Part shown: piece by piece, positions 27,958 through 62,944 of the stretch
How positions within the stretch are numbered: the first letter of the stretch is position 1
How the letters are laid out: every line of letters starts with the position of its first letter
From: Tridacna crocea
Taxonomy: Eukaryota; Mollusca; Bivalvia; Cardiida; Cardiidae
Direction of reading: 5' to 3'
Length of the DNA stretch: 64,000 nucleotides
NCBI GenBank assembly: GCA_943736015.1
Contig: OX031060.1
Coordinates: 13,219,501-13,283,500 of the forward strand
Notes under the pieces: model-generated
The model's database searches: none
Told to the model about the DNA's origin: nothing
The model's input: the letters and a program-made list of their open reading frames with translations, nothing else
Translations under genes and position numbers: made by a program

Positions 27958-28139
27958 TGCCACATTTGATGTATTGTCTGCAATTTCTTTCAGTTTGGCC
28001 GCGAAAAAAGGAAACCATTTGGTATATGAAAAGTTGCCTTATTTACCCTGTTTTCAAACAGTTTCTATACATTATTCTAAAGAAGCGTTTCTTCGGGGTG
28101 GGGGGGATATAAAAAGCATAACTTGGTTAACAGTATTCT

Positions 28140-28519
28140 ACGGTGGCACAAAAGTGACATGGACGATATATTTTATACTACGTGCGCACGCAGTAGCTAA
28201 TACGTGCGCACGTATTAGTTATTACGTGTGCACGTAATAAGTAATACGTGCGCACGCAGTAGTATTACGTGCGCACGCAATAGCTAATGCGTGCGCACGT
28301 AATAACTAAACTATTAAGTGCGCACGTATTAGCTAATACGTGTGCACGCAATAGTATTACGTGCGCACGTATTAGTTATTACGTGCGCACGTATTAGCTA
28401 CTGCGTGCGCACGTAATATTACTGCGTGGGCACGTATTACTTATTACGTGCGCACGTATTAGCTACTGCGTGCGCACGTAGTATAAAATATATCTTCCAT
28501 GTCACTTTTGTGCCACCGT
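28140..28519. mobile_element. Inverted-repeat element with a TACGTGCGCACGTA array
   Basis: Ends ACGGTGGCACAAAAGTGACA and its inverse form roughly 60-bp inverted repeats, flanked by a perfect 8-bp duplication AGTATTCT (28132-28139 and 28520-28527). The interior is about 14 copies of the alternating purine-pyrimidine palindrome ACGTGCGCACGT separated by AGCTAAT, AGTTATT or AGTATT. Confidence 0.85.
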
Positions 28520-28539
28520 AGTATTCTCTACTATTCTGA

Positions 28540-29140
28540 CAATAATTTCTGTCTCCTTCAATTACAAGTACAATCATATATAAATGAGTCTGAATTCCTC
28601 TCATATGTTTTACGAACATGAAAGCTCGCAACAAATCCATAGCTGAAATACAAACCACATCTGGCGGGATTCGAACCCATGCAGAGAAATATCCTCGTTT
28701 TTCGTGGTTCAAAAGACCAATACTATAACCATTTAGCTACAGATATTTCCCTAACGCAGTTGTTAGGTATTGTATTTAAATCGGGACGAAGCCATATATG
28801 AAGGAGTAGTCACCCATAACACCCCTCACCCTCTTACAGTCATCATTTATTGATGACTCAAAGCCTAATTAGGCAGAACGTCCTGGACAACAACTGGGGT
28901 TAATGGCTCAAAGGTCAATCGCGAACGAGCCCCCATCTTACGCACATGATAGTTCGCAATAAATCCATAGCTGAAATAGAGGGACCGGGCAGGATTCGAA
29001 CCTAGAAGGCCCGGACGTAAGGCCAACACCATAACCACTGAGCTAAAGAGAATTCTTCTTAACGCAGTACTTAGGTATTGTATTAAATCGTGACGAAGCC
29101 ATTTATGAAGGAGTGGTCTCCCGTAACATATGGGAAAAAA
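28540..29140 (-). repeat. tRNA-derived SINE tandem (two units)
   Basis: Two heads about 321 bp apart. Minus-strand box A TAGCTAAATGGTTA with box B GGGTTCGAATCCC at 28672-28735, and TAGCTCAGTGGTTA with GGTTCGAATCC at 28990-29045. Between them is a body with GTCATCATTTATTGATGAC. Same family as 37511-38042. Confidence 0.68.
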
Positions 29141-33949: not shown

Positions 33950-35335
33950 TAAAAGAAATATGAAAATATGGCCGTCTATTTCAGGTTTACCACTTAAAAG
34001 ACAACGCTTATGCCCAGGAAATACGAAAGTATTGCCGTGTATGTCAGGTTTACCACTTACAAAACAACGTTTATGCCTAGAAAATACGAAAATATGGCCG
34101 GGATGTCAGGTTTGCCACTTACAAAACAACGCTTATGCCTAGGAAATACGAAAATATGGCCGGGAATGTCAGGTTTACCACTTACAAGACGACGCTTATG
34201 CCTAGGAAATACGAAAATATGGCCGGGAATGTCAGGTTTACCACTTACAAGACGACGCTTATGCCTAATAACTACGAAAATATGGCCGTGCACGTCAGGT
34301 TTACCATTCACAAGACAACGTTTATGCCTAGGACACACGAAAATATGGCCGTGTACGTCAGGTTTACTACTTACAAAACAACGCAAGCTGCCTAGGAAAG
34401 ACGAAAATATGGCCGTGTATGTCAGGTTTACCACTTTCAAACTACGCTTATGCCAAGGAAATACGAAAATATGGCCGGGAATGTCAGGTTTACCATTTAC
34501 AAAACAACGCAAGCTGCCTAGGCAATACGAAAACATGGCCGCGTATGGCAGGTTTACAGCTTAACAGACAAAGCTTATGCCCAATAAGTACGAAAATATG
34601 ACCGTGTACATCAGGTTCACCGCCACTTACAAACTACTCTTCTGCCAAGGAAATACGAAAATATGGCCGCATATGTCAGGTTTACAACTTAAAAGACAAC
34701 GCTTATGCCTAATAAGTACGAAAATATGGCCGTGTACGTCAGGTTTACCACCACTTACAAACTACGCTTATGCCAAGGAAATACGAAAATATGGCCGGGA
34801 ATGTCAGGTTTACCACTTACAAGACAACACTTATGCCTAGGAAATACGAAAATATGGCCGTGCTTGACAGGTTTACAACTTACAAAACAACGCTTATGCC
34901 TAGGAATTACGACTTTTACCACTTACAAATCAACGCAAGCTGCCTAGGAAATACGAAAATGTGGCCGTGTATATCAGGTTTACCATTTACAAGACAACGC
35001 TCATGCCTAGGAAACACGAAAAGATTGCCCTGTATACATCAGAGTTTCCACTTACAAGACAAGGCCTATGACCACTTACAAAACAACAGCTATGCCTAGG
35101 AAATACAAAAGTATGGCCGTATATGCCAGGTTTACCACTAACAAGACAACGTCTATGCCTAGGAAATACGAAAATATGGCCGTGTATGTCATGTTCACCA
35201 CTTACAAGACAACGCTTATGCCTAGGAAATACGAAAGTATGGCCGTTTTTGCCAGGTTTACCACTAACAAGACAACGCTTATGCCTAGGAAATACGATGG
35301 CTTTGTATGTCAGGTTTACCACTTACAAGTCAATG
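33950..35335 (+). repeat. 63-bp minisatellite, about 22 units
   Basis: Unit: GGAAATACGAAAATATGGCC, GTGTATGTCAGGTTTACCAC, TTACAAAACAACGCTTATGC, CTA. Units vary by a few bases and some lose a segment. The period is a multiple of three and stop-poor in several frames, so it generates open frames on both strands; these are not treated as genes. Confidence 0.9.
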
Positions 35336-46349: not shown

Positions 46350-46405
46350 TTAACTCTAGCATACAAAAAAAAATTGGCTTGTCCAAGTCGAAAACATTTG
46401 CAGAC
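46350..46405 (+). mobile_element. Host TTAA element, left piece
   Basis: TTAACTCTAGCATAC, GGCTTGTCCAAGTCGAAA and CATTTGCAGAC, cut at GCAGAC. Continues at 62761. Combined length is about 234 bp less the duplication, normal for the family. Confidence 0.78.
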
Positions 46406-46726
46406 TATGGCGTGACAAACGTTGCAATATTCGATATCAAAATTTACATTCTAAAACGAAAAAATATTCATTCGAAAAAAAAATTTTCATTCGAAAACAA
46501 AAAAATATTCATTGGATAAAAATATATTTGTTCTAAACTTAAATTATATACATTCAATAAAAGATAAATATCGAATACAAAAAAAAAATTATCCAATGAA
46601 AAAAAAAAATTATCCAATGAAAAAAAAAATTTTGCAACATATAAAAATTTACAGACTGCAGTTGAAAAAATATTCATTCGATAATTGACCAATGAGATTT
46701 GGGAAAGCCCATCTAGTAACGGCTTA

Positions 46727-46765
46727 TTTGATTGGACAATGCTGTTGTTAGATTTCCAACATGGC
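46727..46765 (+). promoter_or_regulatory. CCAAT-box and start-site module, left copy
   Basis: TTTGATTGGAC (inverted CCAAT) lies 34 bp upstream of the ATG, with GATTTCCAACATGGC around the start. AACATGGC resembles a YY1-type initiator site. The same two blocks with the same 13-bp spacer length occur at the other end of the element. Confidence 0.5.
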
Positions 46766-46809
46766 TACGCAACAGACGCTAGCTGCCCACCAGAATATAG
46801 ATCTATTCA
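46761..46809 (+). CDS. Element-borne gene, exon 1
   Basis: The start codon sits in the context TTCCAACATGGC and opens MATQQTLAAHQNIDLF, then the donor TTCA|GTAAGT, phase 1 out. It lies inside the left inverted repeat of the 16.4-kb element. The same CCAAT-box spacing and AACATGGC start recur in the right repeat. Exon 2 at 48549 starts with exactly the phase needed. The product family is not recognised. Confidence 0.6.
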
Positions 46810-47210
46810 GTAAGTGGAAAATTATTTATTTCATTTAATTTCTGTAGAAAAGTTGTAATTGTTGAATTATTTCAAATGGATGACATAAATGCTAATGTAT
46901 GACATGAACGTTTGTTGTGGAAGCAGTGGCATTTACTTTTCGCCATAAGAATTAGAGCGGCGAAAGTTCACCGGAATGCACCGGAAACCATTTAAGTTAC
47001 TGGATTTAATTGAAACATCTACCTACCGCGACGGACAGAAATTCGGAATGCACTTGCATTAGAAGTTGCATTGAATTCTGAACACCTTCTAAATCACATG
47101 AGTTATGCTCTTGCAAAATGGGACTTAATGAATGTACAAAGCTATGTTCTGTTAAAGAATTGATTCTATAAAAGTACTTTAAATTTTGTAGAAATATTTC
47201 CAAGCTTTAT

Positions 47211-47390
47211 CTCATTTACTAACCGACAATATTTTAGGCTTGTCCAAATCGAAAGCATTTGTAGACTGAAACTTTGAAATTTGTTTTGTAAATGGTAGAA
47301 AACATTGTGTGAAGAGGAGAAAATGCTGGTTAACAGCATTTTCTTCTTTTTCCGCAATGTTTTCCAAAGTAGGGATTGTGTGTACTCTCA
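47211..47390 (+). mobile_element. TTAA palindromic element, right end deleted
   Basis: TCATTTACTAACCGACAATA, GCTGGTTAACAGC centre, then a direct jump to GTAGGGATTGTGTG. Confidence 0.68.
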
Positions 47391-47808
47391 ATAATGAGAT
47401 GCTACAGTGATCTTTTTCATATTTGGACATTTATTGTACACTGTACCATCTCAAGTCCATCGTAAATTTAACTGATTAAATGCAGGGTTTTCTCTTATGT
47501 TCAGCATTTTTTAAGAGTTCAAACTTGTACACAAAATCTGTGCCGAACTTTCAACTGATTTTGTCTTGATTGTCTCTGTACCAGTCCAGTCAGTGCTAGA
47601 ACAGCCAAATCTCAAGTACAATTAAAGATTTGGAAACTTTTAACCCAATGACTGCCATACTTTAAAGTGATCTTAAGGAGTTCAACTCGCCAGCATTTTT
47701 CAGGGATTTGTTCACCTTCAAATTTTTGGTGGCTACTTAAAGTCTAACCAGTTTAGTTTTTGTTGGTTGAATATGATGCTGTGTAAACACCCATTGTTTA
47801 GAAAAACT

Positions 47809-48038
47809 TTAATTCTTTACTGCACAATCCCAAGTTTTAGTGACCCAAAGCAAAAAGACATTTGAAATGTGGGAAAAGAAGAAATACTGTTAACCAGTTT
47901 TTTTCTCCAATTACATGTACCACAATGTTCTCTATCCTTCCCAAAACAATTTGCAATTTTTGAGTCACATTTATTTTGTCATCTGTAGACTCTTTTTATT
48001 TGGTCTAGGTTAAATTTTGTTGTTTGGAAAAGGGTTAA
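47809..48038 (-). mobile_element. TTAA palindromic element
   Basis: TTAATTCTTTACTGCACAAT at left, TGGAAAAGGGTTAA at right; left arm partly deleted. Confidence 0.72.
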
Positions 48039-48043
48039 ACATG

Positions 48044-48485
48044 TATACATGAGCCATGATCAAGCAAAAAGGAGCTAAAGGTATCTCTATGATCCATGCA
48101 TGATACCCAGCAAGTCATCACATAATTGTGAATCAGTAATATCCGTCCTTATTTAACAACATTTTTATCCTTTACAACACAATCCCAACTTTGTGCTACA
48201 AGGAGAAAATGCTAGAAACCAGCGTTTTCTCCTTTCCCCACAGTTTCTACCCATTGGAAAAACAAATCACCATTTTAACAACATTTAATTTGCTGTCTGC
48301 AAATGCTTTCAGTTTGGACCTGTGTAAAATTTTGTTGTTTGGTAAAGAGTTTATCACAAGGTAGACTGGTCCTTGAACACACAGAAAATTTGACAAATGG
48401 CAAAATTTTTCAGACCAGGTAAGCCTAGGTCAAGACATTTTGTAGATGCATTAGGTCCCTTTCTGCAAAAGCATGGTTCATATAC
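48044..48485. mobile_element. GGCTGACC element interrupted by a TTAA element
   Basis: ACATGAGCCATGATCAAG, GCAAGTCATCACATAATTG on the left and GTAAGCCTAGGTCAAGACAT, GCAAAAGCATGGTTCAT on the right, with a TTAA-family copy at 48167-48353 between. Confidence 0.5.
48167..48353 (-). mobile_element. TTAA palindromic element, short left side
   Basis: ATCCTTTACAACACAATCCC, AAGGAGAAAATGCTAGAAAC and CAGCGTTTTCTCCTTTCCCC, GGTAAAGAGTTTA. Confidence 0.65.
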
Positions 48486-48548
48486 ATGTATATATATCTG
48501 TATATGGACACACACAGATGTATTTCATTTATATTTTTGCTCTTGCAG

Positions 48549-48761
48549 GTAGATGCATTTATGTAGATTCTGCACTAAATAATCGGGGTGTTTTCATTGA
48601 AATATGTGGTGGTATGCTGGACAAAGACGGTACAGTTGCAATTCAGAAATGCAACAGGACTGAAATATATTGAAGGTGTAGATAGGGTTGCAGTCCATTC
48701 AACTGGAACCAATTTTGCCATTCCTGAAAATGTTGAGGGACTTGTTGTGATAGAACTGTTG
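48549..48761 (+). pseudogene. Element-borne gene, exon 2, frameshifted
   Basis: The exon lies between acceptor TGCTCTTGCAG and donor CTGTTG|GTAAGA. In the frame dictated by exon 1 it encodes RCIYVDSALNNRGVFIEICG and runs on to about 48648 before a TGA at 48671. The adjacent frame then continues coding-like to the donor (NATGLKYIEGVDRVAVHSTG, then NFAIPENVEGLVVIELL). Both halves look conserved, so a single-base frameshift around 48640-48650, or a sequence error, is the simplest reading. The second half exits in phase 0, which fits the last exon. Confidence 0.6.
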
Positions 48762-48859
48762 GTAAGATGCCATGCTATTTTCAATTTCCAAGTGTACTTT
48801 TTGTCGCGATTGTGTACCATACTTTTGTGAAGAAAACTGTAAAAGAGTCTTATTATGTC

Positions 48860-49384
48860 ATGGGCGGATCCAGACTGGGGGACCGGGGGTCTGGACCCCC
48901 GGAATTTTGGCAAAAATGTGGTTATCAGATTTATGAAATGGTGCTGGTTTGATATTGCACAGCATTTATGTAAAATAGAGTCATAAATTTAAAAAAAAAA
49001 GTTCTGAATGTGGAGACCTCCTCATGGTTAGAACTCGAAATGTTGACTTTTCTTGTTAACCCATTACCACACAATCCCTACTTTTGACGCCCCTGAGAAA
49101 GAAGCCTTTTAAAAACACTGTGGGAAAAGGAGAAAATGCTGGTAACCAGCATTTTCTCCTTTTCCCACAATGTTTTCTACTCTTCCCAGAACAAATTTCA
49201 ATTTTTCAGTCACCTTTATTTTGTCGTCTGCAAATGCTTTCAATTTGGACCAGTCTAAAATTTTCTCGTGTGGTAAAGAGTTAACAGCTTACATCCACTG
49301 AAATCCGGAAATCAAAGTATCATATGATAAGATGAGTGCGTTTTCGGTGGGATCCCCCCTGAGAAAGATATCTGGATCCGCGCA
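48860..49384 (+). mobile_element. GGCGGATCC-ended element, copy 1, with a TTAA element inside
   Basis: TGGGCGGATCCAGACTGGGG at left, GATATCTGGATCCGCGC at right. The 49056-49284 copy lies within it. Flanking host text matches 61222-61530 inverted. Confidence 0.75.
49056..49284 (-). mobile_element. TTAA palindromic element with an empty-site comparison
   Basis: Full copy. The related host repeat at 61222-61530 lacks it: TTTTCTTG-TTAA[insert]TTAA-CAGCTTAC here against TTTTCTTG-TAAA-CGGCTTAC there. This fixes the insertion boundary at TTAA. Confidence 0.88.
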
Positions 49385-49966
49385 TGTATGTTATGGCACC
49401 AGTCATCCTTCTGCCCATCTGTCCTTCCAGGAGCAATTTCTTGTGAGCACAACTCCAACAGTTTCCATTGGAATAAGTTTAAACATAGCAGTATGAGTCT
49501 ATGATGTGTAGTTGTGCATGGGACTTTTTTCTTTTCGTTCTGTTCATGAGGTCTAGAGTTATCTGCCCTTTAATTCTGAAATTAACAATTTGACTGACAA
49601 GCCCCTTGCGGTGTACTATGGGCTGCTTTGCAAAACCCTTGTCTTTGAAATGTAATAGAAATTTTGCGAATTGTCAAATTGAGCTATTCATTGTGTAATT
49701 TCAGGTATTTGAATTTGACATTTTTGAAATTATATATGATGGCTTAATTGTGATTTTTATGGCATGCTCTTAGGCAGCAAACCTTGTGCTTTTCATTCGG
49801 GTGAAAATAAATGTATCTGAAGAAAGTCAGTCTGGTGATTCTTTACCTGGACAATGGTATAAAATGGATTAAATATACCGGTAGATTGTCATGTGGTAAA
49901 ATACTCTCCACATTATGCTGGCACTATCTAAAAAGTAATGTCAATGTACTTTCATTTCTATTGTAG
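49385..49966. other. Intron of element-borne gene
   Basis: No repeat recognised; ends with the polypyrimidine tract before the last exon. Confidence 0.45.
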
Positions 49967-50068
49967 ATGCTACTGGAGATGTATCGATGGAACAACCTAC
50001 TGACTTTCTGGACAGGCATGGGATTTCATAAAAGATTAGAAATAAATTTCATCAACTATATTGATTGA
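49967..50068 (+). CDS. Element-borne gene, last exon
   Basis: After acceptor TTTCTATTGTAG the frame encodes a tryptophan-rich segment (EMYRWNNLLTFWTGMGFHKR) and ends INYID-TGA at 50066-50068. It is phase 0 in, matching the second-half frame of exon 2. The full product would be about 120 residues and soluble. I recognise no family. Confidence 0.58.
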   Translation: MLLEMYRWNNLLTFWTGMGFHKRLEINFINYID

Positions 50069-50199
50069 TTGCTTGTGACTCACACTTTGGCCATAACCTG
50101 GAGAGTCAATACAGGAACTTTTTACTAGAAGATGAAAATGGCTTTAATTTTGGATGGAGATTTTCACCTGGTACAGAAAAACAGACTTACAAGACAGGG

Positions 50200-50430
50200 T
50201 TATCCCCTCTCCCAACCCTTTTCCCGGTTTTTCATGGCCCGGAGTTAGAGACATTTTGTAAACATTGTGGGAAAAGGAGAAAAAACTGGTAACCAGCATT
50301 TTCTCCTTTTCCAACAGTGTTTTCTACCCTTTCCTAAACAATTTTCAGTTTTTGAGTCACATGAATTTTGTTATCTGCAAATGCTTTCAAGTTGGACCAG
50401 TCTAGAATTTTGTTGTTTGGGAAAGGATTA
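50200..50430 (-). mobile_element. TTAA palindromic element, borders decayed
   Basis: CTCTCCCAACCCTTTTCCCG, AACTGGTAACCAGC centre, GTTTGGGAAAGGATTAG. About 130 bp after the element gene's stop codon. Confidence 0.68.
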
Positions 50431-50529
50431 GAAACTAGGTCACCTGGTTAAATTTTAGATAAACTCTGTATATCCTAGATACCAAGTGTTATGTTCAATA
50501 CTTATGAAAGTTGGTAAGAATATACGTCT

Positions 50530-50762
50530 TGACTCCTTATCACACAATCCCACCTTTTTACAGCACTGAGAGAGAAGGCATTTGGCAGTGTAGTGAGAAA
50601 AGGAGAAAATGCTTGTAACCGGCATTTTTCCCTTTCCACAATGTTTCCTAGTCTTCACAAGAGACAAGACAAATTTCCCTTTTTGTTTAATATTTATTTT
50701 ATCATCTGCAAATGCTTTCCAATTGAACCAGTCTAGAATTTTGTTATTCAGTAAAGAGTTAA
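50530..50762 (-). mobile_element. TTAA palindromic element
   Basis: TCCTTATCACACAATCCC at left, AATGCTTGTAACCGGCAT centre, CAGTAAAGAGTTAA at right. Confidence 0.7.
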
Positions 50763-50959
50763 TGAGAACTCTAACGAGATATAAAATGGGTCACATAGGG
50801 TCAAAAACTAGGTCACTGAGATGGACTCTTGAAAAACCTTCTGTCCATACTCGGAAAAGGCTGTTTCTCTTTGGCTGGGCAGATTATTTTTTGTTGATGT
50901 TTTGAATGACTGTTCACCTGTAACAATCAATATTTGGGTCATAACTGAACATAATGAGT

Positions 50960-51245
50960 TAAATAAAAATAGCCATCCTCTGTGAAAAAGGCTTGATGCA
51001 CTAGCAAAAAAGCAATGAGACATGTCAGTCTGTGTATCTAAGCATGGGTCGGAGCATTTCATTATTTGTGTTTTTTTCTGCACGCTCATGGACCACTCCA
51101 CCTCATGGTGCACTCAGTTATTGGAAAAAAATGATTATATGGATCCTTTATCATGGGCCCATAAATATGTGATTACTTGTTTGGCACATTTGATCTCTCG
51201 GATGCTCTAATTTCCCTTTGCTAGAGCATAGATCATTTCTTTGTT
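50960..51245. mobile_element. GGCTGACC element, diverged
   Basis: ATAGCCATCCTCTGTGAAAA at left and GCTAGAGCATAGATCATTTC at right; CATGTCAGTCTGTG is the palindrome remnant; GTGATTACTTGTTTGGC shared. Confidence 0.5.
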
Positions 51246-51259
51246 ATTTGTGCAGAGTT

Positions 51260-51423
51260 TAATCAGCCTATACAACAGAATCCCATGTTTTAACAACCCA
51301 GGAGAAAGTATGTCGTGTTGGGAGGAAAATGAAAATGCTGTTTATTTGCCTTTCTTTCTTATCCCACAATGTTTCAAAAGATGGCTACCTCAGGGTCTTT
51401 GAAATATGGGATTGCTTATTGTA
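51260..51423 (-). mobile_element. TTAA palindromic element, strongly diverged
   Basis: TTAATCAGCCTATACAACAG, AACCCAGGAGAAAG, GAAAATGAAAATGCTG and TCTTATCCCACAATG; no right border. Confidence 0.45.
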
Positions 51424-51450
51424 GTGTAAGTTTTACATGTACATGTAATT

Positions 51451-52964
51451 ATGCCCCCCTTTCGAAGAAATGGGGGTATATTGCTTTGCACTTGTCGGTC
51501 GGTAGGTCGGTCGGTCCGTAGACCAAGTTTGTCCGAAGCATAACTCAAAAATCATTTCAGGTATCATCTTGAAACTTCATAGGTAGATAGATCTCATTAA
51601 GGAGAAGTGCAGTGCACAAGAACCATAACTCTGCCCATCATATTTTTGGAGTTATTGCCCTTTGTTGATTTTCATACTTAATTTTTGTCCGGAGCATAAC
51701 TCAAAAAGTATTTCAGGTATCATCTTGAAACTACATAGGTGGATAGATCTCAGTAAGGAGAAGTGCAGTGCACAAGAACAACAACTCTGCCCATCATATT
51801 TTTGGAGTTATTGCCCTTTGTTGATTTTCATACTTAATTTTTGTCCAGAGCATAACTCAAAAAGTATTTTAGGTATCACCTTGAAACTTCATAGGTGGAT
51901 AGATCTCATTAAGGAGAAGTGCAGTGCACAAGTACCATAACTCTGCCCATCATATTTTTGGAGTTATTGCCCTTTGTTGATTTTCATACTTAATTTTTGT
52001 CCGTAGCATAACTCAAAAAGTATTTCAGGTATCACCTTGAAACCTTATATTTGAAAAGATCTTATTAAGGAGAAGTGCAGTGCACAAGAACCATAACTCT
52101 GCCTGTCATATTTTTGGAGTTATTGCTCTTTGTTGATTTTCAGACTTAATTTTTGTCCAGAGCATAACTCAAAAAGTATTTCAGGTATCATCTTGAAACT
52201 ACATAGGTGGATAGATCTCATTAAAGAAAAGTGCAGTGCACAAGAACAACAACTCTACCCATCATATTTATGGAGTTATTGCCTTTTGTTGATTTTCATA
52301 CTTAATTTTTGTCCGGAGCATAAATCTAAAAGTATTTCAGGTATTATCTTAAAACCTCATAGGTGGATAGATCTCACTAAGGAGAAGTGCAGTGCACAAG
52401 TACCATAACTCTGCCCATCATATTTTTGGAGTTATTGCCCTTTGTTGATTTTCATACTTAATTTTTGTCTGGAGCATAACTCAAAAAGTATTTCAGGGAT
52501 CACCTTGAAACCTCATAGGTGGATTAACCTTATTAAGGAGAAGTGCAGTGCACAAGAACCATAACTCTGCCCATTATATTTTTGGAGCTTTTGCCCTTTG
52601 TTGATTTTCATGCTTAATTTTTGTCCAGAGCATAACTCAAAAGGTTTTTCAGGTATAATCTTGAAACTTTATATGTGGATAGATCTTATTCAGGAGAAGT
52701 GCATTGCACAAGAACCATAACTCTGCCCATTATATTTTTGCAATTACTGCCCTTTGTTGATTTTCGTACTTATTTTTTTTCCGGAGCATAACTCAAAAAG
52801 TATGCGAGGTAAAGTCATGAAACTTTAAAAGTTGATAGTTCACATAAATGGGAAGTACAGTGCCCAAGAATTGTTAATTTATCATTTTGAGTAATTACCC
52901 TTTGTTCGTTTTTACACTTTGAATGTAAGAGTTTATAATCACATTGGATGCCATTAGGGGGGCA
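51451..52964 (+). mobile_element. ATGCCCCC-ended element with a 156-bp tandem array
   Basis: ATGCCCCCCTTTCG at left and AGGGGGGCAT at right as short inverted ends. After (GGTCGGTC)n come about 8.5 units of 156 bp with AGCATAACTCAAAAAGTATT, CACAAGAACCATAACTCTGC and TTGGAGTTATTGCCCTTTGT. The 92-residue open frames in it are by-products of the array. Confidence 0.82.
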
Positions 52965-53112
52965 TACATGTTTTACAAATATCTCTTGTTGAATTGGTAA
53001 AGCCACCAATCAGAAAATAGGTAACTGGGTCTAATCTCGGGAAAACTTTGTGTACACTCTACAGGCCACATTGTCAATCTTATTCTCATGTAACTTTGTC
53101 AGAATATTTTCC

Positions 53113-53342
53113 TTAACCCTTTACCACACAACAAAATTTTAGATCTGTCGAAATTAAAAGCATTTGTAGATAAGAGTTTTAACATGGCTCATATGAAATG
53201 ATTTTTCTTTGATAGGGTAGAAAACATTGTGAGAAAAGGAGAAAATGCTGGTAACCAGCATTTTCTCCTTTTCCCACAATGTTTTCAAAAGCCTTCTCTT
53301 TCAGGGGGTGTTAAAAGTACTCATCGTGTTGCAAAGGGTTAA
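53113..53342 (+). mobile_element. TTAA palindromic element
   Basis: Both TTAA borders, intact GCTGGTAACCAGC palindrome. Confidence 0.82.
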
Positions 53343-53499
53343 TGATATCCTAGATGAGTTTAAAGTGGGTCATGTTGGGTTAAAAAAACTGTCACTAAGT
53401 CAAGTCCTAGAAAAACCTTGTATACACTCTAATGGCCACTTTTTCAGTCTGATACTCATGTCTTGGAAGTGATTGGAAATGGGGCATGTGTGGTCAAAA

Positions 53500-53660
53500 A
53501 GGCTCAGGTGAGCAACTTCAGGGCCATCATGGCCCTCTTGTTTCTGAAAAGAAAAAGTCTGAATTGGCCAAGCCAGTGATCAAATCAGTGACTCCCTGTT
53601 CTCAAGCTTGCAGGCTATCAACCGAGCTATGGGTGCTTGGCACACATTGTGTCAAAAGAA
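53500..53660 (-). repeat. SINE fragment beside an AGGGCC palindrome
   Basis: AGGGCCATCATGGCCCT at 53520, then minus-strand box A TAGCTCGGTTGATAGCCTG and a GATTTGATCACTGG box-B-like end (53575-53640). Confidence 0.5.
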
Positions 53661-53689
53661 AGGTCACAAGGTCAAAAAGTATCAGTATC

Positions 53690-54310
53690 TACTGGATGGA
53701 TTTTAGTCAAAGTTCATGGGAAGTTCCATTATGAAGTCAAGATGTGCATATTATAATTTGGCTACAGTTCAATGATTTTCAAAGGAGTTATGGCCCTTCC
53801 ATGATTTTTCTTTTGTCGGCTCTATTTCTCAATAACTACAGGATAGATTTCAGTCAATCAGACTTAACCCTTTCCCAGACAGCAAATTTGGGACCAGACC
53901 AAATTCAAAGCATTTTGCCGATGACAAATTAACAGTTGCTTAAAAGATGATTTTTCTATATGATAGGGTAGAAAACATTGTGGGAAAAGGAGAAAATGCT
54001 GGTTACCAGCATTTTCTCCTTTTCCCACAATGTTTCCAAAAGGCTTCTATACCTTTCCTGTAAAAACCAGGGATTGTTTGGGAAAGGGTTAATAGGAAGT
54101 TTTATCATGAAGTGAAGATGTGCATATTATAATTTTGTTACAGTTGAATAATTTCTAAACGAGTTATGGCCCTTTCTTGATTTTTTTCTCCGGTCCATTA
54201 CTCAGTATCTATCAGATGGATTGCAGTCAAACTTTATGGGAAGTTTATATATGAAGCTAAGATGTGCATATTATAATTTGGCAACAAGTTAATGATTTTC
54301 AAAATTTTAC
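53690..54310 (+). repeat. 165-bp tandem repeat interrupted by a TTAA element
   Basis: Three diverged units with AAGATGTGCATATTATAATT, GAGTTATGGCCCTTYCWTGA and GATGGATTNCAGTCAAAC; the 53864-54092 copy lies between units. Confidence 0.7.
53864..54092 (+). mobile_element. TTAA palindromic element
   Basis: Full, nearly perfect palindrome and both borders; target is inside the tandem repeat. Confidence 0.85.
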
Positions 54311-54829
54311 ATTACTATAACATGGTGGCATATTTTAGCCATAAGATACAATATACATGTGACTATCATGATTATTTTAGAACACTATTGTGATTAATCA
54401 TAGTTTCCTAGAAATTTCATCAAGTTAAAATGAAAAGATAATATTCCCAAGAAACTTTGATATATCGCAATACATGTAGTTTTCTAAAATAATCATGAAA
54501 GCTATCTTGTATTTCGTGGCAGATTAATGCCAGTATACTGTATTACTTAGGCAAATTTTGTTTATAACTACTGTAGTAAAAGGGCACCCAGTTCCTTATC
54601 TAACTCCTTAGTGGCTCTCAAATTAAAAAAAGTCAAAGATGCCATAACCAGGGAAAGGGTTGAAGGGAGGTGTGGGTATTTTAGTCAAGATTTCACAATA
54701 TCATTTTTTCTTATTAAGTTCTGTTGATTTTCATATATTAAGTCCACATGGCAAAAGGTTTAGCCTTAAACTTTTTGGTCTGCGAGTTAAATACTTTTAG
54801 ACCAATTTGGTAATGAATAAGAAACCTTA

Positions 54830-55011
54830 GCCTTTCACCACACAATCGACCCTGAAAATGAAATCCTTTGAAAACCTTTTTGGAACAGGACAAAATGCTG
54901 GTTACACAATAAATCCCATAACATCTGCCATAATTATTTATTATGTTGTCTGCAAAATTAATGTTATCATTTTGGTACAGTCTAAAATATTGTTGTGTGG
55001 TAAAGGCTTAA
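54830..55011 (-). mobile_element. TTAA palindromic element, partly deleted
   Basis: CCTTTCACCACACAATCGAC, AACCTTTTTGGAACAGGACA and AATGCTGGTTAC, then jump to GTCTGCAAAATTAATG and GTGTGGTAAAGGCTTAA. Confidence 0.58.
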
Positions 55012-55373
55012 AAGCCTAAGTAGGCTTTTGTGTGTGTGTGTTTTTTTAAACCAGATGAAAACATGTATAAGTACAGACACTGAACATTGTTTGGAATTTA
55101 TTACTGTTTTTATTCAGGCCTTAAGCTAGTCAAAGGCTCTGAAAAACAAGAATGAAATTTGCACAAGAATACCTGTCTATCTTCAAGTTAACTCAAATAT
55201 TGTGCTTAGGGGATATGTGGCACATATAGTGATTTCCGTTCATAGCCAATTCGAAGTACCGTACATGTATATCAGAAAAATGAAGTTATTGCTTCTTTAT
55301 GTATTGGCAAAAGCTTCTATTTTCTCAAGTTTTTATTCAGGTTGCTGTGCAAAGTTTATCTTTTTGTTACTAT

Positions 55374-55605
55374 TTAACTCTTCACCACACAATCCAGACC
55401 TTTAAGAACCCCGAGAAAGAAGCCTTTTGAAAACATTGTGGAATAAGGAGAAAATGCTGGAAACCATAATTTTCTCCTTTTCCCACAATATTTTCTACTC
55501 TGCTGGAAAAAAATTTCAATATTTTAGTTGCAGTTATTTTTTCTTGTCTACAAAATGCTTTTAATTTGGACCAGTCTAAAATTTTGTCATGTGGTAAAGA
55601 GTCAA
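55374..55605 (-). mobile_element. TTAA palindromic element
   Basis: Left TTAA; centre GCTGGAAACCATAA; right border TCAA. Confidence 0.75.
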
Positions 55606-56143
55606 GATGTATTCTGGACTAAGGCTATATACATTTCAGTATCAAAGATTTATTTCTTGACATGGAGCTGTTGAGGGTATTCATCACATTTAGTGATGGC
55701 TCTAGTTTTCTGTGCAATATCCATAAAAGTTGGTCAGAATGTTAGTCTTGAAAATGGGGCATGTTGAACTAAAAAGGTCACTGAGACAAATTCTAGCAAC
55801 AACTTGTACATACTCTAATGGCCACATTTCAGTCAGATACTTATGAGAGTTTATTAGTGTGTGCATGTCACAATAAATCGCATCAGACGATAATGGAAAT
55901 AAGTCATGCTTGGTCAAAATGCTCAGGTGAAAGATTTTAGGGCCATTAGGGTTGCTTTGCCATCTTAAAGTGTTGGGTAATTTTTTTTTTTAAGTCTATA
56001 TCAGTTGATACTTGAACCCCTTTTAGATACAAGTCTGGACTTTACTAATTACCACCAAACCCACTCATTGACCTTGAGGTCAAGGTCATACCTTGAGTTT
56101 GGGGTTGAATCAAATGCTTTGGTAGATTTTGTTTTTACATAAC

Positions 56144-56358
56144 TTTTTACCACAGGAAAAAAATTTAGACAAAACAAAATCTAAAACATTTATGGACAAC
56201 AGATTCATGCTTTTTGTCTCAGATTGGGTACAAAACATGGGGAGATAGGGGAAAAGTGGCAGTAAGCAGCACCTCATCATTTTCCCAAAATGCTTTCAGA
56301 AGCCTTCTTTCTGTAAATCAGGGTTGTTATAACTTGGGATTGGGTGGTAATGGGTTAA
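56144..56358 (+). mobile_element. TTAA palindromic element, diverged
   Basis: CTTTTTACCACAGG, AACATGGGGAGATAGGGG, GCAGTAAGCAGC, GGTGGTAATGGGTTAA. Confidence 0.6.
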
Positions 56359-56403
56359 TTAGTTTTATCTTCAACAAGACTTCCCCAACCAGATAGCTTA
56401 TCT

Positions 56404-56631
56404 TTAACCCATTACCACACAATCCCTACTTTTAACGACCCTGAGAAAGAAGCCCTCAGAAAATATTGTGGGAAAAAGGAGAAAATGCTGGTAACCAGCA
56501 TTTTCTCCTTTTCCTAAAAAATGTTTTCTAAAACCCTTCAAATTTCAAATTTTCAGTAACTTTTATTTTGTAGTCTGCAAATGCTTTTGAGTTGGATAAA
56601 CCTAAAATATTGTCGTTTGGTAATGAGTTAA
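56404..56631 (-). mobile_element. TTAA palindromic element
   Basis: Both borders intact; 46 bp from the previous copy. Confidence 0.82.
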
Positions 56632-57399
56632 GTCAAGATATATTTTTTTGGTGATGGGCAGGCAAGCTATCCTGTATGTGGGTCAGGTTTTGTTTGTGAT
56701 ACAAATCATTCTAGTCTGTTTAAAGATTGTTTCTCATTTTTAGTTTTAATGCACATTAGAAATAATTATGTCGACAATACGATAACAAATAAATATTAAG
56801 AAACTACCGTAATTTTGTGATAGTTTGTTTATTTATTCCTGTCAGTACATGCTTAAACATGAGTTGTCATTTATTGAGTTATACCTGAGCAGTAATATAT
56901 TCTCCACTAAAGGCGAGGATGAGCTGAGGCCTTTATTGTGGAGAAAGTCCTGTCATATCCAGTTGCTGGCAGAAAAACTTACTTCAAGGAGCAACCTTCC
57001 ACCTCGCAAGTTGAAAGATGGACAAATGACTATAACATAAGCTCCTGGGCTTTGGCCCAAGGAGCAAAAAAAAAGAAGGTAACCTGCAAAACTAATAAGA
57101 TGAACAAGGGATAAATTTTTATCTTCTGTCATGTTTAGACAGAAAAAAACATTATGTAATGTCGTAAACACATATTTATTTAAGTTTGACAGCAAAAGAT
57201 TTTTTTTTTTCAATTTGTGAAGCTATGAAAAAGAAATAGCCAAACGGAACTTACAGAACTTGTCAGTATTGATGGAAATTAATACTGATTCATTGGACGG
57301 ACAGATTGACTGATTGATTGTGTTGTGTTTAAACACCGTTTTCAACATTAATTAAGTTTTATCGTGGCAGCCACTGCTTCTATCCATGTTTTCGTGGAG
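56632..57399. other. No feature seen (inside the 16.4-kb element)
   Basis: AT-rich; a weak 71-codon frame at 56825 with no family match. Confidence 0.45.
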
Positions 57400-57615
57400 C
57401 TTCTTTCACCAGTACTCCGCACAATCTGATTTCCAGGCCACTGGCTGCTTCCCCACATAACCATTGTTAAAAGAGTGGACAGCAGTGAGAAAGGAATGGA
57501 TCCTGTCGCAATCATTAATCCTCAAGAAGAAATTGTCCAAGCTAAGGATCAAACCAGTGACCTGTTCTCAAGTCCTCCATGCTAAAGACTGAGCTAAGTG
57601 ACTTGACTGGGCAGA
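57400..57615 (-). repeat. tRNA-derived SINE
   Basis: Minus-strand box A TTAGCTCAGTCTTTAGCATG and box B GGTTTGATCCTTAGC at 57535-57600; body GACAGGATCCATTCC and CAGCCAGTGGCCTGG. Confidence 0.55.
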
Positions 57616-58150
57616 CAGAAACACTTGTAATCACTTTAATAGTTTCAACTATTGACAAATTTCATCATAACAATGTGACCTTGACCTTTAAACTGATGAC
57701 ACAGTTGCAATAGACAGGTCGTCTGTCCATGAACATCATTTATGCGAATAATTTTGGATGCAATTGGAAGCTGTTGAAAAGATGCCTATGTCCTTCCCAC
57801 GATTTCATGGTACAGGCAGAAAAATGCAGTGGAGTAAAATAGGGCAAGCACAGCCCTCTTGACATATAATACACTGTTGACTGGATTGAATTTCTAAAGT
57901 TTACTTGACATAATTCTACACATAAATGATGTGCTTCAACTTGTGATATGCACACTCCTACAAGTTACAGTGTTATCCAAATTGTAACTTTTTGTAGAAT
58001 ACAGCCATTTCTTCATCTTTTTGGAGGAAGAAATGCAGATTTTGACGATGTATCAGCATATGAACCCCTTCTAAATACATATGACTCACAACTATAAGAG
58101 CTTTAGCAGTCAGTGTTGATCAAAATTAGACTGCAAAAAAAACATGCACT

Positions 58151-58352
58151 CAGGGACCTTATTCAACAACCATTCACGAGAACATACTCAGTTTTGTTCT
58201 CCAGATTTTTCCACATTTGAAAGTAACATAGCTTCTGATCCGCTAAAACCATTTTTTTAGCCCATCAGAAGTCTTGTTACTTGCAAATTTTGAAAATTTT
58301 GTAGAATATGACAAAGAAATTCTTTATGGTTGGTGTAAATGGACCCTAATCT
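58151..58352. mobile_element. GGGCC-ended element, diverged
   Basis: TTATTCAACAACCATTCACG, AAGTAACATAGCTTCTGATC, then GCCCATCAGAAG and a decayed right end GGTTGGTGTAAATGG. Confidence 0.55.
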
Positions 58353-58437
58353 CCAATCTACAATGCTTTACTGGAAAACTTAGGACTACACTGTTATAAA
58401 GTTTCCTGGTTTTTTTTTTAACATCTTAATTTTAAAA

Positions 58438-58575
58438 TGCCCCTTTACTACACAATCCCAGGTTTAAATGGCCTTGAGGACAAAAGACTTTTGAAAACAT
58501 TGTGGAAAAAAAACAAAATTGCTGGTTTCCAGCATCGTTTTCCTACAGTTTTCTACTCTTTCAAAGACAAATCTT
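58438..58575 (-). mobile_element. TTAA palindromic element, left half
   Basis: CCCCTTTACTACACAATCCC, AACATTGTGGAAAAAAAAC, TGCTGGTTTCCAGCA; A end missing. Confidence 0.6.
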
Positions 58576-58620
58576 TTATGCCATATTGAAATATATTTAT
58601 CTGGAATGATTTGTTGTTTT

Positions 58621-58847
58621 TTAACTCCTTACCAAACAACATAATTTTTGGCTTATCCAAATGGAGCATTTGCAGACGACAAAATAAAAATGACTGAAAA
58701 TTTGAAATTTGTATTGTGAAGGGTGGAAAACATTGTGGGAAAAGGAGAAAATGCTGGTTACCAGCATTTTCTCCTTTTCCAACAATGTTTTCTATAGGCT
58801 TCTTTCTCGGGGTAGTCAAAAGTAGGGATTGTGTGGCAATGGGTTAA
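58621..58847 (+). mobile_element. TTAA palindromic element
   Basis: Both borders and palindrome intact. Confidence 0.83.
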
Positions 58848-59103
58848 TATGATAGATTCCAGCATTGTATACAGGGCACAGACTAGTCTGTCAGTTTTCA
58901 CTTCATGCCGAGACTGTCATATTTGGCTTCTACCCAGACCATCCATGATCTCTTGCTTCCTATGCATGAAAATGGCTTCCTCCCGAGACTGTCCCAGTGA
59001 TTCTGCTTTCTGCCTAAGGTAGGCAGCTGGCAGAATAATGACAGTCATGGCAGACCACAATTTTTCAAAGGTTAGAGTCTCTACAGGCAGCATGAGATTA
59101 CAG

Positions 59104-59160
59104 ACAGTCTGGACGGAAGCCATATATGACTGCGGCCTGGACGGAAGCCATATATGACTA
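59104..59160 (+). repeat. 26-bp direct duplication
   Basis: TGGACGGAAGCCATATATGA occurs twice, separated by CTGCGGCC. Confidence 0.75.
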
Positions 59161-59332
59161 TCTGTTTTGGCAGGAAATTCTGCAGGCTTGTTTATACCTT
59201 GCTTTGTACAAGTCATTAAAAGTCATTTATTCATATTTAGCAAAGCATTCAATACTGCTTTCACCCCTGTGTAAATGTCTACTCTAATATCATTACTAGC
59301 TGCAAGAGGATCAAAACAGACTCTCAACTGGT

Positions 59333-59561
59333 TTAACTCTTTACCACACAATCCCGACTTTTAACGACCCTGAGAAAGAAAGCTTTTGAAAACATTTTAG
59401 GAAAAGGAGAAAATGCTGGTAACCAGCATTTTCTCCTTTTCCCACAATGTTTTCTACCCTATCCAAATCAAATTTCAAATTTGGATACACATTTATTTTG
59501 TCATCTGCAAATGGTTTCAATTTGGACTAGTCCAAAATGTTGGCGTTTGGTAAAGAGTTAA
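59333..59561 (-). mobile_element. TTAA palindromic element
   Basis: Full copy with both borders. Confidence 0.84.
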
Positions 59562-59894
59562 AATATCTTGTTCAACTTAAAGCCTATCACTTCCATGAAG
59601 CTGAATATCATCATCTGTATGACTGCATAGTAGACATCTCTCCAAAGACGCTCTACCCTGGAGTTATGAATAGGATTTCCAGCAATGAAACCAGTCTCCT
59701 CAATGGTCCTCTTCTTTCTTCCATATATTGAAAGTAATCAGCTTAGTCAGACTTAAGAAGAAATCTTCAAACATTTCCCTTGCATATCCATTTCTTTCTT
59801 CACAATATGGAATCTGAGGTCATTCAGTTTCAGCTTCTGAAACTATAGAAATATGCATAAATAATTCATGCAAATAACCTAAATGTGGCTCAAT

Positions 59895-60000
59895 TGATGG
59901 ATTTCTCTTTGATAGAGTAGAAAATATCATGGGAAAAGCCAAAAATGCTGATCATCTGCATTTTCTCCTTTTCCCACAATGTTTTAAAAAGAGCAATGTT
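59895..60000 (+). mobile_element. TTAA palindromic element, centre only
   Basis: ATCATGGGAAAAGCCAAAAA, TGCTGATCATCTGCA, CTCCTTTTCCCACAATG. Confidence 0.58.
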
Positions 60001-60282
60001 GACATGACCATCCCCTGCCAAATGGTTGCTGGATAGCAGATGTGGAGCTATCTGGGCCTGTCCTTTTGTCCTTCAGTAAAGAGTTGAGGCATCTGCAAAC
60101 AATATTGACCCTGATCAGCGAGCACAGTCCCCTCAGGTTATGGCTTCTGACTAGAGGATTTTCAAAGATTTTCAATAATTTTCAATTTTGTTGCAATGAC
60201 ACCCAAAGTTTTGACATTACAAAGTGCGATGTAAAGTCCTTTCTTTTCTGTTCAAATCCATCAGCTTTGTTTTTTTCAACCA

Positions 60283-60437
60283 TCCTCGGTAAGAAGGCTT
60301 TTCAAAACATTGAAAAGGGAGAAAATACCAATAACCAAAGTTCCTCCTTTTCCACACAATGTTTTTTAACATTTTTAGACAAATTTCCAAGTCTGAACCA
60401 CAGCTTCATTGCCTTTGACAACTTTGATCAATAAAAA
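60283..60437 (-). mobile_element. TTAA palindromic element, diverged fragment
   Basis: CATCCTCGGTAAGAAGGC, AACATTGAAAAGGGAGAAAA, CTCCTTTTCCACACAATG. Confidence 0.48.
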
Positions 60438-60668
60438 TTAGCCCTTTACCACACATAATCCCTAAAGTGAATGGAGGATTTTTAAAACATGGTTAAAAGG
60501 GAAATGCTGGTTACAGACATTCTCTACTATTCCATCATTGTTTTCTACCCTTTCTGAGACAAACTTTGTAATTTGAGCTATATATACAATTTCATGTTTT
60601 ACTCTGCAAATGCTTTAAAAAGTTAGATGCGTGTATATCTAAAATTTGGTTGTGTGGTTGAGAGTTAA
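60438..60668 (-). mobile_element. TTAA palindromic element, diverged
   Basis: CCCTTTACCACACATAATCC, a decayed palindrome, GTGTGGTTGAGAGTTAA. Confidence 0.62.
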
Positions 60669-60984
60669 GGAAAAATATTGTTTTCTGGTAAATAGATCTA
60701 GGGGAGTGTTGTCTTTTGATGTACTTTTGGGCAACCTTAAATGGCCTGCATGGTAATCTAGAATTTATTCTGATATTGTGCAAATACATACCCACTGAAT
60801 ATTTGTTCATCATAATCTGTTATTTCAGCTTTCGCCACACATGTTACTAACATTTAGGAATGCCCAAGCACTATCATGGGACTGCAAAAAGTTGGAAAAG
60901 AAGCTAATGTGCAAACACCATGTTCTGAAAAATAACAATAACCCAAAGTTATGCTCAGCCTTTCTGAAAATGGAGTTTAAATCG

Positions 60985-61221
60985 AACTCTTTAGTTACCA
61001 CAGAATCCTGACTTTTATCAACCCTATGAAAGACAGCTTTTGAAAACATTGTAAAAAAAAAAAGGAGAACGCGAGAAAATACTGATAACCAGTATTTTCT
61101 CTTTTTCCCCCTATGGTTTTTATCTTTACCAAAATATCTATATCTGAATAACATTCTTTTTTTTGTGCAAGTGTTTTCAATTTTGACCCATCCAGAATTT
61201 TGTCGTTCGGTAAAGAGCTAA
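60985..61221 (-). mobile_element. TTAA palindromic element
   Basis: TCTTTAGTTACCACAGAATC, TACTGATAACCAGTA centre, GTCGTTCGGTAAAGAGCTAA; adjoins the GGCGGATCC element. Confidence 0.68.
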
Positions 61222-61530
61222 CATGGGCGGATCCAGATATCTTTCTCAAGGGGGGTCTCACTGAAAACGCACTGGTCTTATTATATGATACTTTGGTTTC
61301 CGGATTTCAGTGGATGTAAGCCGTTTACAAGAAAAGTCAAAGTTTCCAGTTCTAACCATGAGGAGGTCTCCACATTTAGAGCATTTTATTTTTAAATTTA
61401 TGACTGTATTTTACATAAATGCAGTGCAATATCAAACCAGTACCATTTCACGAATCCGATGACCACATTTTTGCCAAAATTCCAGGGGGGGGTCCGGACC
61501 CCCGGTCCCCCCCTCTGGATCCGCCTATGG
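61222..61530 (-). mobile_element. GGCGGATCC-ended element, copy 2 (inverted, uninterrupted)
   Basis: About 309 bp, CATGGGCGGATCCAGATATC to CTCTGGATCCGCCTATGG, with the G-rich GGTCCGGACCCCCGGTCC region. Inverse of 48860-49384 without its insert. Confidence 0.77.
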
Positions 61531-61635
61531 CTAACTCTCTATCAAATTTCAAAATTTCAGACTGACCATCTCAAATTACTTACAGTCTTTCTGAAAAGAT
61601 GTTAAACCGCTGTTCCATGTGACATATGGAGCGTG

Positions 61636-61867
61636 TTAACCCTTTCCCAAATGACAGAATTTTAAACTTATCATAATCAAAATTGAAAGCTTTTGCAGAT
61701 GACAAAAGTGCTGTGACTTAAAAATCAAAATTTATGTATAGAAGGGCAAAAAACACTGTGGGAAGAGGAGAAAATGCTGGTAACTAGCATTTTCCCCTTT
61801 TCCCACAACATTCTCAGAGGCCTGTTTCTCGGGGCTGTAAAAACCCTGATTGTTTAGTAATGTATTC
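61636..61867 (+). mobile_element. TTAA palindromic element
   Basis: TTAACCCTTTCCCAAATGAC at left, GCTGGTAACTAGC centre, right border decayed. Confidence 0.72.
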
Positions 61868-62179
61868 AAGAAACGGGTGTAACTTGATTAGGATGGATTT
61901 CAATCTGTACTATTCCTAGTAACGAAACTAGCAGTCTTCAGGGTCGTTGCCTATATGCCCATATTGGCAAGCCCTTGTGACAATCCACAAATCATTCCCC
62001 TACTGACAGACGTTTAGCCCCCTTTTGCCAAGACACTGCACCAAGTCAGAGAAGTAATCTGTTCAGACAGACAGAAAACGAGAAAACTGTATCCACTCGC
62101 CTTACATTGGAGATAAAATTCACATTTCTTTCGCACAATTATACTTTATTTCAGAGACAATTGTGCATTCTGGTACTTT

Positions 62180-62760
62180 GAATTAACATTCGGTGCACTC
62201 CGGTGTTCTCGACGAGCCCTAATCATAAGGAGGTCACTCGGTCCATTCTCTCTACTTTTAACTTGGAAACATCGTGGTCAACGTTCAAGTGTATGTGTAC
62301 AAACAAATACAGAAAGTCAAGTTGCCCATTTCCTTTAAAATTCAACTTACCGGCAATCCAGCTAACTGGCAAGAGTTTTTCCCGAACTTGCGCCGTCCTG
62401 ATAAAGCATCGCCATGTTGGAAATCCCTTGAAACTGTCGTCCAATCAAATGCACTGTTGCAAAATGGTCTTTAACCAGTATCGAATGAATTTTTTTTTTA
62501 TTGCAACATTTGTGTCATGACAAACGTTGCAATATTCGATACCAATATTTTCATTCGAAAAAAAAAATAATGATTCGAAAAAAAAAATATTGGTTCAATA
62601 ATCCTATATATTTGCTACAAAACAAAAAATATGTGTGCGAAAAAAATTATTTATTCGATAATTTTAGTTTTGGGAACAAATATTTTTTTTATCGAACAAT
62701 TTTTTTCCGTTTTGGAATGAATATTTTGACATCGAATATTGCAACGTTTGTCACGCCATA
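62180..62760 (-). repeat. Right terminal inverted repeat of the 16.4-kb element
   Basis: Inverse counterpart of the left end. Read on the minus strand it has the 30-bp terminus, A-tract blocks, an extra inverted copy of the terminus at 62518-62545, CATTCGATA, TTTGATTGGAC, then AACATGGCGATG at 62415 and a donor GCCG|GTAAGT at 62350. The frame from this ATG stops after 17 codons, so this end is not an intact first exon. Confidence 0.68.
62411..62449 (-). promoter_or_regulatory. CCAAT-box and start-site module, right copy
   Basis: Mirror of 46727-46765 with identical spacing (34 bp from TTTG to ATG). The spacer sequence differs while both edges are conserved, as expected if the edges matter. 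Confidence 0.48.
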
Positions 62761-62944
62761 GCAGACGACAAAATAAAAGCGACTGTAAATTTTGAAATTG
62801 TCGCAGTTTGAGAAGGGTAGAAAACATTGTTGGAAAAAGGAGAAAATGCTGGTTACCAGCATTTTCTCCTTTTCTTACAATGTTTTCTAAAGGTTTACTC
62901 TCCTAGGGTCGTCAAAAGGAGGGATTTTGATGGTAATGGGTTAA
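62761..62944 (+). mobile_element. Host TTAA element, right piece
   Basis: Begins GCAGACGACAAAATAAAAG exactly where the left piece stopped, then the intact palindrome, GGGTCGTCAAAAGGAGGGAT and GGTAATGGGTTAA. Confidence 0.8.

Follow-up and report, generated by a model that had tools for sequence, protein, structure and literature searches.

A repeat-inflated 16.4-kb insertion in a TTAA-bounded MITE of Tridacna crocea, probably a decayed DNA transposon of the IS3EU/GingerRoot type

Does the 16.4-kb stretch lying between two parts of a small TTAA-bounded repeat represent one mobile element, and to which group of transposons does it belong? The question was raised by the first-pass annotation of the window (the whole 64-kb stretch of DNA analyzed here), which had described a single inverted-repeat element of this size, compared it with the Polintons/Mavericks and suggested that it may belong to an undescribed family as a non-autonomous giant. 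The coordinates of the features discussed below are collected in Table 1.

Table 1. Positions of the 16.4-kb element, its target and selected internal features in the window.
Feature	Position	Strand	Remarks
Left part of the interrupted TTAA MITE	46350..46405	+	ends in the left GCAGAC
Left copy of the 6-bp target-site duplication	46400..46405	.	GCAGAC
Left terminus, 30 bp	46406..46435	+	begins TATGGCGTGAC; equals the inverted right terminus
Left terminal inverted repeat, imperfect	46406..46770	+	AT-rich repeats, ATTGG, CCAACATGGC
Putative inward first exon, left	46756..46815	+	CCAACATGG at 46756, donor-like GTAAGT at 46810; predicted function
Tandem array, 156 bp x 8.6 copies	51528..52870	.	inside the element
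TTAA-bounded MITE copy abutting the end of the integrase remnant	59333..59561	.	
Open piece with the integrase-core remnant	59562..59719	-	PF24764; residues 5-42 correspond to about 59594-59707
Putative inward first exon, right	62345..62420	-	CCAACATGG from 62420, donor-like GTAAGT from 62350; predicted function
Right terminal inverted repeat, imperfect	62406..62760	-	
Internal terminus-motif copies	62501..62540	.	small palindrome TTGCAAC..GTTGCAA
Right terminus, 30 bp	62731..62760	-	
Right copy of the 6-bp target-site duplication	62761..62766	.	GCAGAC
Right part of the interrupted TTAA MITE	62761..62944	+	starts with the right GCAGAC

The boundaries agreed with the annotation to the base: the inverted termini, which read TATGG..CCATA, are identical over 30 bp, and the direct repeat GCAGAC is present at both junctions. 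When up to three mismatches were allowed, the 26-base core of the terminus was found three times in the 64 kb (shuffle mean 0.00, n = 100), the third match being an internal inverted copy at 62512-62537 (+) that was absent from the original list. The exact terminus pattern had no match in the genome_contigs or viral_contigs collections. Because a scan of the window for inverted pairs (18-base arms, spacing of at most 30 kb, identical flanking repeats of at least 6 bp) gave 37 rows, the termini of the 16.4-kb element among them, an equal flanking 6-mer is by itself weak evidence; the 30 rows that were inspected were mostly centres of the MITE family to which the target belongs.

The evidence for the 6-bp duplication is strong because of the match to an empty site. 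The target family consists of TTAA-bounded, near-palindromic MITEs of about 230 bp and is dense in the window, where it gave 36 alignments of at least 150 bp, one of them being the right half of the interrupted copy. The flanks of the element were joined by script with one GCAGAC kept and were aligned to the 35 other long copies. The alignment ran without a gap across the junction; exact GCAGAC occupied the junction position in 17 of the 35 copies and a variant of it in the other 18, a gap came within six columns of the junction in three, and in none of these 35 copies in the window did GCAGAC occur twice near it. The paralogous empty site with its single GCAGAC therefore shows one insertion carrying a 6-bp target-site duplication inside one TTAA-bounded MITE, and this MITE is older than the 16.4-kb insertion. 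Two of the initial claims, that the outer flanks rejoin as one palindromic TTAA element and that a single element with inverted repeats was inserted in it, were thus borne out.

Next to the termini, the two ends show significant homology over about 365 bp inward on the left and about 355 bp on the right. The segment 46436-46640 compared with the right end, and 46665-46770 compared with 62406-62497, both scored above all 500 shuffles. A deeper patch approximately 530-580 bp in, present at matching offsets, reached a score of 31, as did 27 of the 500 shuffles, and it was dropped as not significant by itself. The patchy inward homology of the annotation hence stood up to about 365 bp and was not significant at 560-590 bp. 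Two inverted pairs further inside (48896-49000 with 61384-61488, and 49280-49387 with 61221-61328) were likewise rejected as a deeper inverted repeat; they are 90-91% alike, whereas the true ends have diverged, and they form a separate repeat. This dispersed repeat, which has GGCGGATCCAGA, occupies 48896-49387 and, inverted, 61221-61488; a MITE interrupts its left copy.

Both ends carry the same short landmarks in the same order. Measured from the left and right termini, ATTGG lies at 326 and 316 bp, CCAACATGG at 351 and 341 bp and GTAAGT at 405 and 411 bp, although ATTGG and CCAAT are also present elsewhere within both ends. These motifs may represent, in each end, an inward promoter, a start region and a splice donor. 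In the right end, the ATG frame meets a stop after 17 codons, ahead of the donor-like site, and a sigma-70 scan of this end gave matches at the level given by shuffles.

The right end also harbors inner copies of the terminus motif approximately 225-260 bp from the terminus, the left-end counterpart of which is degenerate. These copies may be extra transposase-binding sites. The inverted one, lying about 225-250 bp into the right end, could make this end look like a short palindromic element, as would be expected if two separate elements of about 250 bp had landed in two different TTAA MITEs. Such a coincidence was rejected on the grounds of the empty site and the continued homology: the outer flanks complement each other as two parts of a single MITE and join at the base, the homology between the ends extends to ATTGG and CCAACATGGC, beyond the inner copy, and the inner copy is without the TATGGCG tip. 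We regard this reading as having scarcely any probability.

The coding content of the element was sought in the six frames of 46400-62600, scanned with Pfam with an X at each stop. The sole match that stood was to PF24764 (rva_4, 'Integrase core domain'). Blind scanning of the frames gave it 25 bits (E 1.8e-5), slightly below the cutoff of 26, and the open piece of 52 residues chosen afterwards gave 31.5 bits (E 1.8e-7); the match spans 38 of the 194 profile positions (88-125) and exceeds the cutoff only as this picked piece. Within it, HNSRVERLWRDV presumably contains the third catalytic acid of a DDE core. The remnant may derive from an IS3EU transposase rather than from another integrase-bearing element.

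Across 46400-62600, six-frame scanning with Pfam yielded no match to a polymerase, capsid, ATPase, protease or alpha-kinase, which agrees with the annotated absence of visible Polinton genes. Searches starting from the remnant added little. A homologue search gave six candidates, none with E of 0.01 or less; one pattern search gave seven stretches with none confirmed, another search gave no candidates, and a pattern search with 63 stretches yielded one confirmed stretch, antisense to a Helicobacter ORF, that was set aside as apparently spurious. The single PDB match (E 1.8) was of no use. Four Pfam families in the 156-bp array (TPR_27, Dark_WHD, YbgE and Nucleoplasmin) exceeded the whole-protein cutoffs, no single stretch doing so, and were taken as summed weak matches over the repeats; Ig_J_chain, which also matched weakly in the frames of the element (E 0.07), was discarded. 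Among ten open stretches of at least 130 aa searched against Pfam (eight of the nine outside the element and two of the three inside), none scored above the cutoff.

The size of the element has to be read together with its repeats. Altogether, 7438 of its 16,355 bp match elsewhere in the window or within the element itself; the terminal repeats account for 324 bp of these, and 8917 bp have no such match. The long MITE alignments number 36, with 14 starting points in the 16.4 kb of the element and 22 in the remaining 47.6 kb of the window; the entry of the 14 internal copies may have preceded or followed the insertion at this site. The element is large partly through the smaller repeats within it. 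The same interior, rich in dispersed repeats and mostly devoid of recognizable coding sequence, could be pictured as host DNA mobilized between two IS3EU-type ends; this composite arrangement appears unlikely, since the interior holds an integrase remnant oriented inward from the right end, and the repeats are explicable as insertions into the element.

Other repeats and a gene were noted in passing. The 156-bp array is, we assume, reminiscent of bivalve satellites. Outside the element, a 63-bp minisatellite (21.8 copies), both strands of which have long open stretches, lies at 33955-35333, and a tRNA-Lys (ttt) gene is situated at 28656-28746 on the minus strand. An inverted-repeat element at 28139-28520, flanked by the 8-bp repeat AGTATTCT and with an interior of 22-bp hairpin units, is one that we take to be a hAT-type MITE, judging by its 8-bp duplication.

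The termini, the length of the duplication and the one short integrase fragment are the reasons for the classification: with a probability of roughly 0.8, the 16.4-kb stretch is an old, dead, repeat-inflated and decayed DNA transposon of the IS3EU/GingerRoot type. Complete IS3EU families, united with GingerRoot in PMC10045372, are described there as always having TA..TA ends and usually 6-bp target-site duplications. The TET-bearing IS3EU elements of rust fungi are characterized in PMC12730594 by 6-bp duplications, inverted repeats longer than 30 bp and TAYGG..CCRTA ends, with oppositely oriented transposase and alpha-kinase genes. The TATGG..CCATA termini conform to both end patterns, and GCAGAC, with the paralogous empty sites and the single insertion, to the 6-bp duplication; for the expected DDE transposase related to IS3/IS481 integrases, the only candidate in the element is the PF24764 fragment. 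As for bivalves, two oyster satellites are labelled IS3EU in PMC8268682, and the main text of a bivalve transposon study (PMC10294476) does not mention IS3EU and places Mavericks in all of its genomes.

Two parts of the initial interpretation have to be revised accordingly. An undescribed family is not called for, as IS3EU/GingerRoot elements have been published with such termini and with duplications of this length, and the interior contains an integrase-core remnant. Since this remnant is present, 'non-autonomous' describes the present decayed state and not a separate kind of element.

The following history would fit the preferred reading. An integrase-like DDE transposase would have bound the ends and the sub-terminal repeats, excised the element elsewhere and inserted it here across 6 bp of the TTAA MITE. 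The transposase gene was presumably transcribed inward from the right end and a second gene perhaps from the left, both being driven by the promoter-like and splice-donor-like sites in the inverted repeats. Later the transposase gene would have decayed, and MITE copies, the 156-bp array and other repeats may have enlarged the element before or after its insertion at this site. A bolder extension, which we consider rather doubtful, is that the locus represents an animal lineage of IS3EU that is large and multi-gene, in which each of the long inverted repeats contains an inward promoter, a first exon and a sub-terminal palindrome, and which had a second gene, a passenger driven from the left end and by now too decayed to be recognized. 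The locus opens no new class of element and is fairly ordinary as old insertions go. Having a large IS3EU-type insertion and its empty site defined to the base is nevertheless useful for repeat annotation, and the case illustrates that other repeats, by landing in a transposon of middle size, can lead to its being taken for a giant.

Among the known systems, Polintons/Mavericks carry genes for DNA polymerase B, capsid, ATPase and protease. The element resembles them in its 16.4-kb size, inverted repeats of hundreds of bp, integrase remnant and 6-bp duplication, a length given for Polintons in PMC10045372, so a Polinton that lost its genes might be considered. It differs in that no Polinton gene was found in the six-frame scans, although decay could hide such genes, in the published IS3EU signature at its termini, and in a size that is inflated by repeats. 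We consider the Polinton origin very improbable, and the comparison drawn by the first-pass annotation was not upheld.

Ginger1 and Ginger2 share with the element an integrase-like transposase and inverted repeats; their TGTNR ends and duplications of 4 or 5 bp (PMC2836005) contrast with the TATGG ends and 6-bp duplication found here. Styx of Zymoseptoria (7927 bp, 6-bp duplication, four ORFs, a transposase ascribed to IS3EU; PMC10853768) is a precedent for a large multi-gene relative, but it is fungal, recently active and smaller. Finally, the element is like IS3EU/GingerRoot in its TA..TA ends, 6-bp duplication, inverted repeats longer than 30 bp and putative integrase-like core, and unlike them in retaining only a short presumed transposase fragment, in extending over 16.4 kb with many internal repeats and perhaps also in its long imperfect inverted repeats with a sub-terminal palindrome.
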